NCBI GenBank assembly: GCA_025362295.1
Contig: JANYGX010000005.1
Location: 1-64,000 of the forward strand
Origin: Sphingomonadales bacterium
Lineage (GTDB): Bacteria; Pseudomonadota; Alphaproteobacteria; Sphingomonadales; Sphingomonadaceae
Direction of reading: 5' to 3'
Length of the DNA: 64,000 nt
Part shown: positions 12,088 through 20,150 of the stretch, in pieces
How the letters are laid out: each line of letters opens with the position of its first letter
How positions within the stretch are numbered: the stretch's first letter is position 1
Position numbers and translations under genes: made by a program
Notes under the pieces: model-generated
Seen by the model: the letters and a program-made list of their open reading frames with translations, nothing else
Told to the model about the DNA's origin: nothing
Database searches by the model: none

Positions 12088-13011
12088 TCAAGTGGCCTGT
12101 TCCGCCTTACTCAGTGCCTTGATGTCCGCAACGATCATTGTGCCCGTGCCTTCGTTGGTGAATACCTCGGCGAGAATTGTGTCCGGGGATTTATAGGACG
12201 TAATGTGCACGCGACCAACCCCACCACGCAAGGCATCTTCAATAGCCTTGGCTTTGGGCAATACACCATCTTTAAGGCACCCGCGCATGCGCAATCTGGC
12301 AAGGCCATCCAGATCGGTATAGGATACTAGCGATTGCGGATCATCGATGGATTCCATAATGCCTGCCGGTTCTGCGCAGATGATCATTTTTTCCGCTTTT
12401 AGTGCCGCTGCAATCGCCGATGCAACGGTATCAGCATTGATGTTCAACAGTGTGCCATGTGCGTCGGCCGAAAGCGGACTGATGACCGGCATCACACCAT
12501 CTTCAAGCAAGCGCAACAACACCGTTGGATCCACTTGATTGATGTCGCCAACAAATCCGTAATCTACAGTTTTGCCTTCAACTTCAACCGAAGGCCGCCG
12601 GCTTGCACGAATGAGACCAGCATCAACGCCACTGACACCAACGGCATTAATTCCCAGTTCCCGGCACAGCGCCAGAATTTGAGTGTTGATAAGTCCGTTC
12701 AAAACCATACTGGTTACAGTGATCGATTTGGCATCGGTAACACGGCGGCCAGCCACCATTTGGGCTTTGATACCAAGTGCGCTTTGTGTGTCGGTCAATT
12801 GTTTGCCACCACCGTGAACAACGACGACACGAATACCAACCTGAAGCAGAATGAAAATTTGCTCAAACACACCGCGCATCAGTGCTGCATCGGCAAACAG
12901 CCCACCACTCATTTTAATGAGAAATACCTTGCCGCAATACATCCTTATGTAAGGGGCTGCGCGGCGCAAGGCACTCACGGCAACAGATGGATCTGTACGA
13001 TTTTTAATCAT
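12088..13011 (-). CDS. argB: Acetylglutamate kinase
   Basis: A 307-residue amino-acid kinase. Diagnostic pieces are FLIKMSGGLF, VVVVHGGGKQL, VAGRRVTD, the N-acetylglutamate site around LNINADTVASAIA, and GGVGRVHITSYKSPD with GTGTMIV at the end. It phosphorylates N-acetylglutamate, the second step of arginine synthesis. Last gene of the argR - P-loop protein - argC - argB run, 20 bases after argC. There is no fused acetyltransferase domain, unlike the NAGS-NAGK fusions in some relatives. Confidence 0.92.
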   Translation of the reverse strand: MIKNRTDPSVAVSALRRAAPYIRMYCGKVFLIKMSGGLFADAALMRGVFEQIFILLQVGIRVVVVHGGGKQLTDTQSALGIKAQMVAGRRVTDAKSITVTSMVLNGLINTQILALCRELGINAVGVSGVDAGLIRASRRPSVEVEGKTVDYGFVGDINQVDPTVLLRLLEDGVMPVISPLSADAHGTLLNINADTVASAIAAALKAEKMIICAEPAGIMESIDDPQSLVSYTDLDGLARLRMRGCLKDGVLPKAKAIEDALRGGVGRVHITSYKSPDTILAEVFTNEGTGTMIVADIKALSKAEQAT

Positions 13012-13031
13012 GATAACTCCTGAACACTATT

Positions 13032-14114
13032 TTAAGTCCAGCCTGGGGCTGGTGCGGATAATCCCGCAGTCTCTTCAAACCCAAGCAATCGATTGGCCCA
13101 TTGCAAGGCACCGCCGGCAGCACCCTTGACGAGATTATCGATGGCGCACATGACGGAAATCGTCTCGCCATCCGATATAACACTGAGGTGAGCATAGTTA
13201 CTGGCAACGACATCTTTAATATGTGGCATAGAAGCGCCAACATGAACAAATGGGCATCCGCTGTAAGCCTCCGTCAACACATCAAAAGCATCTTGTGTGC
13301 TGAGTGAGTGCTGCAGCCTTGCCTGCGCGGTTACGTGTATGCCGCGTGCAAACGGACCCGAGTGCGGCACAAAGCGATAGTCGGCTGTTACACCACTTGC
13401 AGCACTCGCGAGCGCTGTGACTTCCGGTGCGTGGCGGTGCACAAGTGCGTTATAGGCATAGAAATCGCTATGCCGTTGCGGGTGGTGTGTGCCAGACGTT
13501 GGTGCCCGCCCTGACCCTGTACTCCCGGTGATGCCCGCAACAAACCACTGCGGCTCAATACTATTTTGCTGCATGAACGGCACTGTCGCCAAAAGTATGG
13601 CTGTGGCAAAGCACCCCGGATGCGCCATGTGCGCTGTTGCCGGGGCTGCCATATAATGCTCCGGCACAGCGCAGGTGAATTCTCGAATTCGGTCAGGTGC
13701 ACCGTGCGGGTGCTTGTAAACCGCCTCATAGGCAGCCGCTGAGCCATAGCGAAAATCTGCCGAGATATCGACTATATGTATTTGCGTGTCCACTGATTCA
13801 GCTGTTGCCAGTATATCATCAATAAGTGCTGCAGATACACCGTGCGGCGCCGCTGACAGAACAAGGGCTTGTGGTATAGCGTTGATTTTAAATTTGAAGC
13901 TCTCGAGATTCGAAAACGTCATATCTTTGAGACTGGGAAACAAATGTGTAAACACGCTGCTGACAATTTCTCCCGGCTGACTGTCTGATAATATAGCGCT
14001 TAGATTTAGATATGGGTGAGCGCTCACCAGACGCAGCAGCTCACCAGCTACATAACCTGTCCCACCAAGTATAAAGGTTGGCACCTGTTGAGTTGTGTCT
14101 TGACGTTTACGCAC
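13032..14114 (-). CDS. argC: N-acetyl-gamma-glutamyl-phosphate reductase
   Basis: A 360-residue reductase. The Rossmann motif is ILGGTGYVAGELLRL, the catalytic cysteine is in AHPGCFATA, and GITGSTGSGRAPTSGTHHPQ and YRFVPHSGPFARGIHVT are typical of the type 1 ArgC family. It reduces N-acetylglutamyl phosphate with NADPH. The start lies three bases after the stop of the upstream P-loop gene, so translation is probably coupled. argB follows. Confidence 0.93.
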   Translation of the reverse strand: MRKRQDTTQQVPTFILGGTGYVAGELLRLVSAHPYLNLSAILSDSQPGEIVSSVFTHLFPSLKDMTFSNLESFKFKINAIPQALVLSAAPHGVSAALIDDILATAESVDTQIHIVDISADFRYGSAAAYEAVYKHPHGAPDRIREFTCAVPEHYMAAPATAHMAHPGCFATAILLATVPFMQQNSIEPQWFVAGITGSTGSGRAPTSGTHHPQRHSDFYAYNALVHRHAPEVTALASAASGVTADYRFVPHSGPFARGIHVTAQARLQHSLSTQDAFDVLTEAYSGCPFVHVGASMPHIKDVVASNYAHLSVISDGETISVMCAIDNLVKGAAGGALQWANRLLGFEETAGLSAPAPGWT

Positions 14115-14117
14115 AGG

Positions 14118-15191
14118 CTATACGCCTTCAGGGGGTTTGGCTTTGAGTCCCAGAGACTCGATCAGATGATTACCCAGAGCAGCGCCGTTCGCAATCGCGT
14201 TGAACGCTGGCACCTGCATTTGATTGTGAATGATATTGATACCAACGGCATTATCGGTGGCTGGACCTGTCACAGCTGCCGGTTCAATATGAAAGCGCTC
14301 ACGCAAAAGCTTGACGCCACCCCAGGCCGCCACAGGATCGTTGGCACACAACACCACAGCTGGAATAATTACACGAATATCATCTGAGGCCAATATAGCT
14401 TCAACGCCGTATGCGCCAAGAAGTCCATCACCAAGCTCAAACACGATCGCATCTGGCTTACCGATTGCCATCTCGGTGAGCAGTGCACGGGTAATTGCCG
14501 GGCCATTTTTTGCCGTGGTTGTTACAACACCGAAATCTGTAAAGATCATACTTTTTTTGGCACCCGCATCTTCCATCGCCAGCACATCACGCCGAAGCGA
14601 CACACCTGTTGACTTAAAGGCATGAACGGTGAGACCGCGCCGACGCATCTGTGAAATGATCGCACAGGCGGCAGCTGTTTTACCGGCTTCCATGCAACTG
14701 CCCGCTAGCGCCACCACCGGCACACCCGCCACATCGAGCGCTGCGTTATAATCAAGTGCACGGTAACCAATATGTGCAGGCACACCAATGCGTTCCCCCA
14801 GATAGGGAAATTGCAGCACCACGCCAAGCACGCGACAATCAAACGGCTGGCCCTTGTCGGGGTTAATGGAATCGCATATTCCCAACACACCGCCAATATT
14901 GAGCATTTGAATGATATCGCCATGTTTGACATGGTCTGGCAGATGCCCCGAGTAACCAAATAACGCCTGCCGGTGACCAAGCGCACCAATAATGATGTCG
15001 CCCTTGGCAACCTTTGACATCCGGCCACCAATAAGCTCCAGTGTATTATAGGCAGATTTGTTGTTGAGTATCTCAACAGCCAACACCGCACCCTCTGTCG
15101 CAGGTATGTCGTGCATATCAATATGGAGATTATGACCAAGATTACAGGCTTGAGCGATCGAACCGATTTTATCAACTGTTATGGTTTTCAT
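14118..15191 (-). CDS. P-loop protein of unknown function in the arginine operon (DUF1611/BioD-like)
   Basis: A 357-residue protein. Residues about 30-135 look like a beta-rich domain (EGAVLAVEI, LELIGGRMSK, KGDIIIGALGHRQALFGY). A Walker A motif GSCMEAGKT at 164-172 opens an NTP-binding domain with a CobQ/BioD/DUF1611 look; FKSTGVSLRRDVLAMEDAGA and FELGDGLLGAYG follow. The usual arginine genes do not include such a protein. It begins one base after argR and ends three bases before argC, so it is part of the operon. A role in arginine synthesis is inferred only from position. Confidence 0.7.
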   Translation of the reverse strand: MKTITVDKIGSIAQACNLGHNLHIDMHDIPATEGAVLAVEILNNKSAYNTLELIGGRMSKVAKGDIIIGALGHRQALFGYSGHLPDHVKHGDIIQMLNIGGVLGICDSINPDKGQPFDCRVLGVVLQFPYLGERIGVPAHIGYRALDYNAALDVAGVPVVALAGSCMEAGKTAAACAIISQMRRRGLTVHAFKSTGVSLRRDVLAMEDAGAKKSMIFTDFGVVTTTAKNGPAITRALLTEMAIGKPDAIVFELGDGLLGAYGVEAILASDDIRVIIPAVVLCANDPVAAWGGVKLLRERFHIEPAAVTGPATDNAVGINIIHNQMQVPAFNAIANGAALGNHLIESLGLKAKPPEGV

Positions 15192-15192
15192 T

Positions 15193-15675
15193 TTATAATG
15201 GCTCTTCGATATGCTCTGAATACAAAAGGCCAAAAACTTCTTGCAGGTGCGTGATCAAAATGTGCTGACTTTTCTGATCTTTTGTTGCTATGAAAATAGT
15301 GTCATCACCGGCAACGGTACCCACTTCTTCTGGCCAGTTCGCGCTGTCGATGGCCTGCGCAACGCTTTGTGCCGAACCCACTCTGGTCTTGATAATTGTA
15401 AGGTTAGGACCGGCAACATGCATACCTTGAACAAATGGTGCCAGAGCCGCAAACATATCAGAAGGCGATTCGCTTCCTGATCGCGGCATGACATATCTGT
15501 CACCAACCTTGGCAACGCCAATGTCTCGAAGATCGCGACTGACACTCGACTGAGTGACCTCAAAGCCATTTTTGCGTAATAAATCAACCAAATGCGCTTG
15601 TTGAGCAACTAGGTTATCGCGCAATAATGATGCAATTGCCTGACGGCGCGATTGTGTTGTCGATAGACTTGGCAT
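15193..15675 (-). CDS. argR: Arginine repressor ArgR
   Basis: A 160-residue protein. The N-terminal winged helix contains RRQAIASLLRDNLVAQQAHL and VTQSSVSRDLRDIGV; the C-terminal oligomerisation and arginine-binding core has GTVAGDDTIFIAT. It represses arginine synthesis when bound to arginine and should control this operon and itself. ATG 15673-15675 gives the usual N-terminus; upstream open frame to 15738 runs through the operator palindrome and is not used. Confidence 0.92.
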   Translation of the reverse strand: MPSLSTTQSRRQAIASLLRDNLVAQQAHLVDLLRKNGFEVTQSSVSRDLRDIGVAKVGDRYVMPRSGSESPSDMFAALAPFVQGMHVAGPNLTIIKTRVGSAQSVAQAIDSANWPEEVGTVAGDDTIFIATKDQKSQHILITHLQEVFGLLYSEHIEEPL

Positions 15676-15691
15676 TATCTCGATACCTTTT

Positions 15692-15729
15692 ATTGAATAT
15701 TTATGCATTTTAATGCATAAATATTCAAT
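15692..15729. promoter_or_regulatory. ArgR operator: two tandem ARG boxes in a perfect palindrome
   Basis: ATTGAATATTTATGCAT (15692-15708) is followed by a four-base spacer and its exact reverse complement (15713-15729). Each arm matches the E. coli ARG-box pattern TGAATwwwwATTCA with one mismatch (TGAATATTTATGCA). As two 18-bp boxes they are two bases apart, the spacing known for the E. coli argR operator. It sits 17 bases upstream of the argR start, so autorepression is expected. Confidence 0.85.
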
Positions 15730-16747: not shown

Positions 16748-18316
16748 TTAGCTTGTTAAAACATTATCTTTTTTCAGAACTGTCACAAGCGCGAGTGTCA
16801 TGCCCAGCATCATAAACACTACTGGGTGATTATCAGTTTGCGACAGTACAGATTTGATGACCAGGAAAACAGCAAGACAAACTGCCAGTGGTGCAGCCAG
16901 TCTTGCTTGCTGGCTTTTATCGTAGACATAAACCTTGATAGCCTCGAAAATCGTTAACATAAAAATACCAACGTAAGCAATCAATCCAGGTATTCCCAAG
17001 TCCATCAGTAGAGTGAGAAAATAACTGTCAACGGTCAGTGTGCCATCTGGGTTGCGGAAACCGAGAGCATTTCCAGATTGACCTAAACCGTAGCCTCCAA
17101 TTGGCCGATGTAATATCTTGTCCCGGCTCATTCTCCACTGAGCTGCACGACCTTCATTGCTGAATTGGGATTGGCCATGTCCGCCAAGAATGGATGACTG
17201 CAAACGCGGGCTTGCAGCAAGCGCAATAAAAAATATCAACGTCACCAGTGGGTAAATTGTGAGAACTGCAGAATTGACCAGATAATCGCGCTTCTGTCTG
17301 ACGCGCCTGAGAGACCACAAAAGTAAATATAATCCATGAGTGCCGATGAACGCGATGATGCCCAATCGAGATCCGGTAACATATATACCGACACTTACAA
17401 TGAAATAAGCACAAACTGAAATCGTGCGCATAAATTTATTGGCGCCATCAATAATAAAATAAAGTATGACAGGCATGATTAAGCCTAAATATTCAGCAAA
17501 CGTAAGGCTAACAGAAAATGTGCTTTGCGCTCGATATATACCATCTCTCATTTTGACTGAAAAAATTTTATACATCAATACTGGATCTGCAAACATCTTC
17601 GCAGGCAGCCAATTCATCCATAATATATGTTGTTTTCGAAATTCCAATATACCTATTAACGATGTTATAATCGCTGCATAAATCAGATATAAAAATATTT
17701 TTTCAATCTTCATGGTATTCCTGAAATAGTACATGCTAAAAATCATAGGTAACATCCAGGACATGATGTATTTGATTAAAAGTGAAAAAGAGGCGGTTGG
17801 CTGTAGGGAAATCGGAATGCTGATAACAAGAAGTATGAAATATGTAAGAGTAAAGTTTTTGATTACTTTATGAGAACGAAAAACGTCGCGAATGCAATTT
17901 CTGAATTGATCAGAACTAAACGAACAGTAGAGTGCCAGCACCACGAAAATATACTGCGCCAAGTGAGGCGGTGAAAGCCATAAACCTGGAAGTTGGAAGG
18001 CGATATATTCTGGCCATAGAATGGTAAAATAAATATATAAAAAAAAGAAGTTTCCAAGACTGCTCAGGGGTGGATTATAAAAATCCGGCATGGCCCACAG
18101 GCAGAAAATATAAATGATAGCAATAACAGCGACAGGCACCATAATAAGGTTTGGCATAAGAAACGCCGTTAATGCCCCAACCAACACACCAAGGATAATT
18201 GCAAGCAATGCCCAGAAAGAAATAAAGCGAAAACGCCGCCAACCTTTCTGGTTTTGATGATATTGTAAAAGTAAATTTGCCATAGTTTTAAATTTTGCGT
18301 CCGAATTGATCATCAA
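16748..18316 (-). CDS. O-antigen ligase/polymerase family membrane protein (exopolysaccharide polymerase)
   Basis: A 522-residue protein with about eleven to twelve membrane spans. A large periplasmic loop carries the Wzy_C features: VTGSRLGIIAFI, RAAQWRMSRDKILHRPIGGY, GLGQSGNALGF and VDSYFLTLLMDLGIPGL. Proteins of this family link or polymerise lipid-carried sugar repeats in the periplasm. As the polymerase-type gene of the locus it would act after the flippase at 32.3 kb. There is no strong ribosome site; a later Met at 18283 is another possible start. Confidence 0.82.
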   Translation of the reverse strand: MMINSDAKFKTMANLLLQYHQNQKGWRRFRFISFWALLAIILGVLVGALTAFLMPNLIMVPVAVIAIIYIFCLWAMPDFYNPPLSSLGNFFFLYIYFTILWPEYIAFQLPGLWLSPPHLAQYIFVVLALYCSFSSDQFRNCIRDVFRSHKVIKNFTLTYFILLVISIPISLQPTASFSLLIKYIMSWMLPMIFSMYYFRNTMKIEKIFLYLIYAAIITSLIGILEFRKQHILWMNWLPAKMFADPVLMYKIFSVKMRDGIYRAQSTFSVSLTFAEYLGLIMPVILYFIIDGANKFMRTISVCAYFIVSVGIYVTGSRLGIIAFIGTHGLYLLLWSLRRVRQKRDYLVNSAVLTIYPLVTLIFFIALAASPRLQSSILGGHGQSQFSNEGRAAQWRMSRDKILHRPIGGYGLGQSGNALGFRNPDGTLTVDSYFLTLLMDLGIPGLIAYVGIFMLTIFEAIKVYVYDKSQQARLAAPLAVCLAVFLVIKSVLSQTDNHPVVFMMLGMTLALVTVLKKDNVLTS

Positions 18317-18424
18317 TCTTGAAACGTGCGTATCATTATTGTTTTAATACAGTAATTTTAATATAACATGTCTATCTTATTATCGCTTTAATACATATTA
18401 CAATTTATATCACGAAAGCTTGAT

Positions 18425-19450
18425 ATGACCAATAAAGATGCTGTTCAGATAACTCAAAAATACCAGATCGCACTCGTTGGTTCAGGGGGGGGGCATTTGC
18501 GACAGCTCAAGGACATTGCCCCCGGCCTTAAAGATTTTGATGTCTTCTTTGTGACAGAAACGAGTGGCCTTTCAGACAGCCTCAAAGACCAATATCACGT
18601 TGAAAATCTGCCCCATTTTGCGTTTGGGCAAAAAAAAACGGGGTCTTATGCAGAATTTTTGACTTCCGGGTTTGCAAATGCATTCAAGTCTTTCGCCCTG
18701 GCCTTTAAAACAAAACCTGATCTTGTAATAAGCACAGGCGCTGGCTCGGCTTTCTTTTATGTATTAATGCGTCGCTTGCTAGGGTCTCGCTATATATTTA
18801 TTGAATCATTTGCCCGTGTAGACGGCCCATCGTTGTTTGGACGTTTGAGTCATAAATTCGCCAACCGATTAATCGTTCAATGGCCTGGTTTACTGAAAAC
18901 GTGGCCTCATGCTGTTGTGTGTAATCCGCTGCACCCTATAGACTTGCCTTCGGGACAAAAGCCTAGAACCAATGTTTTTGTAACTGTCGGCACAACGCAC
19001 CCGTTTGATCGGATGATAAAAGCCGTAGAAACACTTAAAAATGATGGTCGCTTAACAGCGCCGGTCACAGCTCAGATTGGAAATTCATCTTATGCACCTT
19101 CAGCCATAACATGTTTCAAGTCATGTAATTTTGAGACCATGCAGCAATATTTATGCGCTGCTGACATAGCAGTCTGTCATGGTGGCACTGGCTCTTTGAT
19201 CGTTGCTCTGCAATCTGGCGCCGCTGTCGTTGCCATGGCAAGAGAAGCTAAGTTCAACGAGCATTATGATGATCATCAAGTTGAAATTGTCAGGGCATTT
19301 GCAGAACGTGGGCTCATCGAGGTAGCCCACGATGCCGATAGCCTGGCATCTTCAATAGAGCGTATTAAAGTAGCACAACGCCGTTCTGTGAGAATGGATT
19401 CAGGCGAAATGATAAAAGTTATTCGTGATTATATTGACAGCCATATTTAA
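18425..19450 (+). CDS. PssD-PssE (Alg14-Alg13) type fused glycosyltransferase
   Basis: A 341-residue protein. The N-terminal half is Alg14/PssD-like: ALVGSGGGHLRQL, LVISTGAGSAFFYVLMRRLLG, IFIESFARVDGPSL. The C-terminal half is Alg13/PssE-like (GT28 C-terminal fold): VFVTVGTTHPFDRMI, CAADIAVCHGGTGSLIVAL. These two parts are separate polypeptides in rhizobia, yeast and many streptococci; here they are one. Such enzymes add the second sugar to a lipid-linked primer at the inner membrane. It is the only clear non-initiating glycosyltransferase in the locus. Confidence 0.87.
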   Translation: MTNKDAVQITQKYQIALVGSGGGHLRQLKDIAPGLKDFDVFFVTETSGLSDSLKDQYHVENLPHFAFGQKKTGSYAEFLTSGFANAFKSFALAFKTKPDLVISTGAGSAFFYVLMRRLLGSRYIFIESFARVDGPSLFGRLSHKFANRLIVQWPGLLKTWPHAVVCNPLHPIDLPSGQKPRTNVFVTVGTTHPFDRMIKAVETLKNDGRLTAPVTAQIGNSSYAPSAITCFKSCNFETMQQYLCAADIAVCHGGTGSLIVALQSGAAVVAMAREAKFNEHYDDHQVEIVRAFAERGLIEVAHDADSLASSIERIKVAQRRSVRMDSGEMIKVIRDYIDSHI

Positions 19451-19480
19451 TCTGCTGAATTTTTACTTACAAAGCAGATT
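19449..19480. terminator. Possible bidirectional terminator between convergent genes
   Basis: AATCTGCT (19449-19456) pairs exactly with AGCAGATT (19473-19480) around a 16-base loop containing TTTTTA. It spans the stop codons of the glycosyltransferase and epsI genes. The stem is short and AT-rich, so strength is doubtful. Confidence 0.35.
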
Positions 19481-20150
19481 TCTCGGCATATTTTCCAAGC
19501 AAAAATTTATTTGTTTTTGAGCCGCTGTGAGCTAGTAACGCAGTAATAAAATTATTTTGTAATTTAAACTCTTCGGTCGCGTCTTCGCCAATAGAGGAAA
19601 TCCGAACAAGCACGCCATCAGGCGTCTTACCACTCAGTCCATAAAAAAGTTTGGTCTTCTGTCTTGCCCATGTACCATTTGGAATATCATCACCAACACG
19701 TGTCCAGTACGTAACAGGCTCGTACCGCGTATCTCGAGATGTTCTCAATTGCACAGCGGGAAACTTCAAAGAAGCGGTCTCAAGTGTTACATGATTTGGC
19801 TTTGATACCAGATAACCAATGGCAGTGTAGCAAATCTGCGGAAGGTGAAGTTGTAGGGAATCTGTTTGATTGCTCCCGTAAGCAATAACCAACATAATAA
19901 GTTTGCCATCTTTATTTAGATAACCTCGTGCAAGTGTCTGGCTGTAAATCTTGCTCGCAATGCCGCCTTCAGGCGCAGGTAAAACAATATTAACTTTATC
20001 ACTGGCAACCCAATTATCCAATTGCTTTGGTATCATGGATTGAAGTTCATATGTGGTTACAGGGGTTGAGTGGTTACTTCGAGGAACCATTAAATATGCA
20101 GCCACGGCCGCTAACGTCATAAAGAATGCTATTGCAAATTTGTGCATCAC
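19467..20150 (-). CDS. epsI: EpsI family exosortase-associated protein
   Basis: A 227-residue protein with one N-terminal membrane segment (IAFFMTLAAVAAYLM) and a periplasmic domain. The family block is LIMLVIAYGSNQTDSLQLHL followed by PQICYTAIGY, corresponding to the HxPExCY motif of EpsI/DUF3485 with Gln for Glu. In other genomes EpsI is fused to or follows an exosortase and serves exopolysaccharide export. Its ATG overlaps the exosortase stop by four bases. Confidence 0.88.
   Translation of the reverse strand: MMHKFAIAFFMTLAAVAAYLMVPRSNHSTPVTTYELQSMIPKQLDNWVASDKVNIVLPAPEGGIASKIYSQTLARGYLNKDGKLIMLVIAYGSNQTDSLQLHLPQICYTAIGYLVSKPNHVTLETASLKFPAVQLRTSRDTRYEPVTYWTRVGDDIPNGTWARQKTKLFYGLSGKTPDGVLVRISSIGEDATEEFKLQNNFITALLAHSGSKTNKFLLGKYAEKSAL

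Follow-up and report, generated by a model that had tools for sequence, protein, structure and literature searches.

A P-loop protein of arginine operons as a candidate N-acyl-L-glutamate synthase

The first step of arginine biosynthesis has been reinvented several times, in ArgA, ArgJ, NAGS-kinase and other enzymes, and we know of no earlier first-step enzyme built on a P-loop scaffold. The P-loop protein DgcN, a member of DUF1611, we take to be one and the same as the D-glutamate N-acetyltransferase with the number EC 2.3.1.312. The name and number of that acetyltransferase come from one report (PMC11747546), and the DgcN-DgcA pathway of D-glutamate is described in two others (PMC10845958, PMC12363236). 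In the succinylated pathway of Bacteroides, BT3761, which is related to the synthase Cabys_1732, is the proposed N-succinylglutamate synthase and BT3717 is the succinylornithine carbamoyltransferase (PMC7311316). The acyl group used can be read from the carbamoyltransferase, in which Glu92, Asn185 and Lys302 (Xanthomonas numbering) mark the acetyl-type enzyme and A/S/P/V/Q, P and V/I/E at the same sites mark the succinyl type (PMC4581275), the rule for site 92 being repeated in PMC7311316.

The locus compared here with these systems lies in a window of 64,000 nucleotides, the whole stretch of DNA that was analysed, from a Sphingomonadales bacterium (assembly GCA_025362295.1, contig JANYGX010000005.1, positions 1 to 64,000). 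On the minus strand of the window, argR (15193..15678), a gene for a 357-aa P-loop protein (14118..15191), argC (13032..14114) and argB (12088..13011) follow one another with intergenic gaps of 1, 3 and 20 bases; the protein encoded between argR and argC is called P for short. The arginine repressor ArgR (161 aa) matches Pfam Arg_repressor and Arg_repressor_C above cut-off, the N-acyl-gamma-glutamyl-phosphate reductase ArgC (360 aa, GTG start) scores 272 bits on TIGR01850 (cut-off 233.6), and the N-acylglutamate kinase ArgB (307 aa) scores 197 bits on TIGR00761 (cut-off 151.3). AA_kinase is the only Pfam domain of this ArgB, a fused NAT/GNAT domain being absent, and family search found it to be the sole ArgB-type kinase above cut-off in its genome. 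Directly upstream of argR, scoring of 18-mers against the ARG-box consensus WNTGAATWWWWATTCANW revealed two boxes that form an inverted repeat, ATTGAATATTTATGCATT at 15692..15709 and AATGCATAAATATTCAAT at 15712..15729, each with 17/18 matches, and shuffled sequence yielded no ARG-box 18-mer with at least 16/18. The P gene, argR and the ARG boxes make up the interval 14118-15729, and the complete unit spans 12088-15729, in which neither ArgA nor ArgJ is encoded. An earlier note on this DNA had described the gene order, spacing and common strand, had named ArgR, ArgC and ArgB, and had pointed to the double ARG box and to the lack of argA and argJ; all of this is borne out by the coordinates, family scores and box counts, and family searches found neither argA nor argJ elsewhere in the genome. 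Beside the operon, window 16748-20150 encodes an O-antigen-polymerase-like membrane protein, a glycosyltransferase-like protein and an EpsI-like protein, and was read by eye as a region of exopolysaccharide/exosortase type.

On sequence comparison, P belongs to no named family among those tested. Window P matched no Pfam or NCBIfam family above cut-off, which agrees with the earlier impression that it is unlike any standard arginine enzyme; TIGR01890 (ArgA, AAK plus GNAT, 202.85 bits) and PF01960 (ArgJ, 32 bits) gave no match, and a Pfam match to MobB was weak and below the curated cut-off. Sequence searches of the PDB with window P, with alignment A1 (31 family sequences 69-75% identical to window P) or with alignment A3 (down to 23% identity) returned nothing, or weak P-loop matches only. 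The translation confirms the Walker A motif GSCMEAGKT that had been noticed at residues 164-172 (14676..14702, minus strand), in which G164 and C166-T172 are invariant in A1 and G164, G170, K171 and T172 are invariant in A3. An AlphaFold2 model of the whole protein (pLDDT 79, pTM 0.71) is confident in the C-terminal P-loop domain and weaker in the N-terminal part, residues 1-157 (14721..15191, minus strand), for which its secondary structure agrees, at moderate confidence, with the beta-rich character claimed before. The N-terminal part modelled separately reached a pLDDT of 45.6, and that model was discarded. Fold matches of the P-loop domain include CTP synthase (Z 16.4), 2g0t (16.0), 2obn (15.5), dethiobiotin synthetase (15.1) and DgcN (PDB 7xrj, 14.5), of which 2g0t and 2obn are DUF1611 structures.

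Membership of P in DUF1611 (PF07755/PF17396) was nonetheless rejected, there being no Pfam match. Window P gave nothing against PF07755 at E<=1 (the Pfam gathering cut-off is 25 bits) and no match to the DUF1611_N domain PF17396, and the Povalibacter homologue scored 19.1 bits on PF07755 (E 0.0009), below the 25-bit gathering cut-off. The DgcN equivalog NF041892 (cut-off 480 bits), on which a true DgcN scores 542.5, matched neither window P nor its homologues, and profile comparison of the P family with genuine DgcN aligned the P-loop region only, with an E-value of 0.0009 and a probability of 23%. A DUF1611 match in one other genome (G150) is a false positive, recognized by eye as FtsY. Literature searches returned nothing relevant on DUF1611 with arginine, or on Steroidobacter with arginine synthesis.

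P is not filed as DUF1611/DgcN because its likeness to DgcN is no better than that to other P-loop enzymes and the profiles align over the P-loop only. The two proteins share a P-loop domain of similar fold and a short F(K/R)(A/S)TG motif downstream of the P-loop, and the substrate proposed for P, L-glutamate, is the opposite isomer of the D-glutamate used by DgcN. They differ in the P-loop itself, which reads GTDCSVGK followed by M or K in DgcN and has a canonical GKT in P, apparently in the beta-rich N-terminal part of P, with no significant profile similarity beyond the P-loop, and in genomic company, P being linked to the arginine operon and DgcN to the epimerase DgcA. The resemblance is kept as a likeness of fold, and perhaps of chemistry too; it hints at N-acyl transfer to glutamate, though without exceeding the resemblance to other P-loop enzymes. 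With MobB, dethiobiotin synthetase and CobB, P likewise shares a P-loop domain, but it falls below all curated cut-offs and has another genomic role. With ArgA, ArgJ, the NAGS-kinase of Xanthomonas and Maricaulis and the C. glutamicum type, P would share a pathway position, although there is no sequence match and a P-loop stands against the GNAT or ArgJ fold.

The genomic company of P is strongly conserved. A scan that took one genome for each species detected 199 stretches with genes for relatives. The best 80 of them (69-77% identical, mainly from Steroidobacteraceae and unnamed Gammaproteobacteria) were retrieved and joined with six more from whole genomes; P lies directly upstream of argC in all 86 of these loci. 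The complete order argR-argG-P-argC-argD-carbamoyltransferase-argB-argH, first read in Povalibacter uvarum, is present in 62 of the 86, and one gammaproteobacterial contig (L057) has a compact argR-P-argC-argB in the same order as the window. Four divergent relatives (42-45% identity), included in the 86, sit between argG and argC, still adjoining argC, in the order argD-carbamoyltransferase-argB-argH-argG-P-argC on contigs long enough to show it. Adjacency of P and argC thus persists although the operon has been rearranged and the sequences have diverged by more than 50%, which argues for a shared pathway rather than chance linkage. The earlier note had asked whether homologues always lie between argR and argC, and this holds on the argC side, whereas argG separates argR from P in most loci; at identities of at least 42% the homologues stay with arginine genes, and only relatives of ~23-30% identity are found elsewhere. 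The complete operons hold all arginine enzymes but the glutamate-acylating and deacylating ones, and the M20 queries used found no homologue in the flanks of the operons. Three loci (L048, L069, L050) are titled Klebsiella pneumoniae or Janthinobacterium lividum, but their operons group with Steroidobacteraceae-like MAGs, and the names are probably wrong.

Where P is present, ArgA and ArgJ are, but for one fragment, missing from the genomes searched. ArgA above the TIGR01890 cut-off was found in none of 50 P-bearing genomes, the sole matches being ArgB and generic GNATs; ArgJ (PF01960) turned up in a single genome, a 1.6 Mb MAG, where it is a fragment of 98 aa. The ArgB proteins of P operons are 300-324 aa long and therefore carry no fused synthase domain, as a NAGS-kinase fusion would. 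The window genome is rated 100% complete, and family searches across it found no ArgJ (PF01960) and no ArgA above the TIGR01890 cut-off, so that, fragment aside, carriers do lack argA and argJ, a point singled out for checking when the operon was first read. A second, weak TIGR01890 match in this genome was rejected as a hidden ArgA, looking instead like RimI beside a TsaB-like gene, and a NAGS-kinase fusion is ruled out by the length and single domain of its ArgB.

Within the window's order, 135 of 147 genomes encode ArgJ. Of the remaining 12, six have no ArgB above cut-off and have evidently lost the pathway, five have a NAGS-kinase, that is, a long ArgB bearing the NAT domain PF04768, and the last is the window genome, the only one of the 147 with a full-length P gene. 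Three other genomes of the order encode far relatives of P (E 1e-9 to 1e-17), and both of the two that were inspected adjoin an ABC transporter gene. Each examined genome of the order that retains the pathway encodes ArgJ, NAGS-kinase or P, and among all genomes examined P is mutually exclusive with ArgA, ArgJ and NAGS-kinase; P is found in the genomic place of the first step where these three are absent. By this strict co-occurrence and mutual exclusion, the P family probably takes the place of N-acetylglutamate synthase. In the window's family, five genomes of genus g12 (G083, G128, G130, G131 and G142), of 2.1-2.3 Mb, have neither ArgJ nor ArgB, which probably makes them auxotrophic for arginine; other members of the genus keep ArgJ.

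Phylogeny suggests how P came to be in the window's lineage. In the tree, window P falls within a gammaproteobacterial clade (support 99/97), on a long branch, and window ArgC stands beside members of that group with weaker support. This placement of both proteins, together with the absence of full-length P from the rest of the order, argues for transfer of a block into the window's lineage, and P and argC look to have been transferred together. In a second cluster (L095), the window genome has kept argG, an ordinary OTC and argH.

The carbamoyltransferase of the gammaproteobacterial operons bears on the nature of the acyl group. It is of the acetylornithine/succinylornithine type (NF003384 above cut-off), and its PDB matches are the Xanthomonas enzyme and then the Bacteroides enzyme. 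With the X. campestris numbering checked on the alignment, where E92, E144, N185, K252 and K302 fall on the right letters, sites 92-185-302 read A-P-A in 70 of 75 operons, A-P-V in two, P-P-E in two and V-P-E in one. None of the 75 has the acetyl-type E, N or K at these sites, and all have the succinyl-type pattern at sites 92 (A/P/V) and 185 (P); site 302 is A in 70, E in three and V in two, never K, the Ala lying outside the published succinyl set V/I/E. Such residues suggest that the gammaproteobacterial parent lineage most likely uses N-succinylated intermediates, as in Bacteroides, and P would then be a candidate N-succinylglutamate synthase. The Bacteroides pathway has succinyl-type residues and a like logic, and differs in that the P operons are proteobacterial. 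In the window genome the OTC acts on free ornithine, so that the acyl group must come off earlier. No ArgE above cut-off was found there; DapE, a desuccinylase, is encoded, and it is speculation that this enzyme might remove the acyl group. At locus L153 (C18, at ~88 kb), the same genome encodes an M20 hydrolase (PRK07338) followed, directly adjacent, by a 342-aa protein that resembles by eye the arginine N-succinyltransferase AstA, and the hydrolase is a possible deacylase candidate for the arginine pathway.

Outside arginine operons, the far relatives of P (~23-30% identity) fall into several groups by neighbourhood. In one, a flavin-reductase-like gene, an M20 hydrolase and the far relative form a three-gene cassette (L143:7136-9967, L144:4348-7197, L147:6402-9246), the nearest models of the hydrolase being PRK07338 and glutamate carboxypeptidase; in one genome (G764) the cassette occurs alongside the form of P found in arginine operons. 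In a second group the far relative lies directly upstream of a gene for an ABC transporter (L083, L084, L145, L146, and L087 and L088, the two from the window's order mentioned above). A further relative, on a Priestia megaterium plasmid (NZ_CP085446.1), sits inside a phosphonate-type cluster with genes for a member of the PEP mutase family, TPP enzymes, two ATP-grasp proteins, an ornithine carbamoyltransferase, an M20 peptidase and an LLM oxidoreductase, possibly a natural-product pathway. Acyl-amino-acid chemistry would fit both the M20-cassette and the Priestia plasmid groups.

We propose, with a probability of roughly 0.68, that P is a non-orthologous N-acyl-L-glutamate synthase of P-loop fold that carries out the first arginine step. 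The protein, with its P-loop domain at the C-terminus and a beta-rich part at the N-terminus, is apparently unrelated to ArgA, ArgJ and GNAT-type synthases; it would put an acyl group onto the alpha-amino group of L-glutamate, and ArgB would phosphorylate and ArgC then reduce the product, both being encoded next in the operon. The most likely acyl group is succinyl in the gammaproteobacterial parent lineage. The donor would most likely be an acyl-CoA, bound at the P-loop as in DgcN, to which P is distantly similar; the acylation of glutamate, the succinyl group, the CoA donor and the direction of transfer are what we infer for P. In the window organism, the block argR-P-argC-argB would have been acquired horizontally, displacing the ArgJ-based start used by relatives, and argG, OTC and argH of the second cluster would complete the pathway. 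That P is such a synthase and that its acyl group is succinyl, taken jointly, we put a little short of an even chance. Just as tentative is the wider proposal, in which a new P-loop family makes N-succinyl-L-glutamate, a succinylated pathway operates in many Gammaproteobacteria (Steroidobacteraceae and others) and a mobile block has replaced ArgJ in a second proteobacterial order.

Of the three roles offered in the earlier note, supply of a missing step is the one well supported, and regulation of ArgC/ArgB and action on a related amino acid are left as rivals. A different chemistry for the same step is also conceivable, in that the canonical GKT of P, as against the P-loop of DgcN, could hold a nucleotide rather than CoA. 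P would then be a ligase that spends ATP or GTP to activate a free carboxylate, such as succinate, and couples it to glutamate. The invariance of K171/T172, K193, D202, D219 and E252, the alignment of the domain with CTP synthase and dethiobiotin synthetase as well as with DUF1611, and the weak MobB match are consistent with a ligase. All characterised N-acylglutamate synthases known to us, however, use acyl-CoA or acyl-ornithine, and DgcN, similar in this domain, is an acetyltransferase, so that a ligase appears unlikely. P could in principle also be a deacylase of N-acylcitrulline (or N-acylornithine), with another enzyme making N-acylglutamate, because the deacylation step has no assigned enzyme in carrier genomes: the complete operons are without both the acylating and the deacylating steps, and no M20 homologue was seen in their flanks. 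Amide hydrolysis, however, requires no P-loop, the known deacylases of the arginine pathway are M20 enzymes, certain far relatives stand beside an M20 hydrolase and so are not needed as hydrolases, and it is ArgA and ArgJ that P-bearing genomes are without, all of which makes a deacylase very improbable.

A role as regulator or maturation factor for ArgC, ArgB or ArgR, of the kind of the GTPase chaperones MobB and HypB, draws on the tight coupling of P to argR and argC and on the fold class to which MobB and HypB also belong. It would leave unexplained that ArgA and ArgJ are missing precisely from the genomes with P, and, to our knowledge, ArgB and ArgC of other bacteria require no such factor; we regard it as improbable. 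Least probable of all is that P acts on a related amino acid or in a side pathway and is merely co-regulated with the arginine genes, for although far relatives occur beside ABC transporters or in the phosphonate-type cluster with its ornithine carbamoyltransferase, the carriers keep the other arginine steps yet have none of the first-step enzymes tested.

If P is indeed an N-acyl-L-glutamate synthase, it would represent a further invention of the first arginine step, by a protein without a Pfam or NCBIfam family name, and would fill a hole in the pathways predicted for a common group of environmental bacteria, which automated tools would label auxotrophs. The succinylated arginine pathway, described so far for Bacteroidetes, would extend to Gammaproteobacteria, and the window organism would offer a clean example of a transferred operon displacing the native committed step of an amino-acid pathway. 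The wider relatives of P that lie beside M20 hydrolases would in turn gain a substrate hypothesis.
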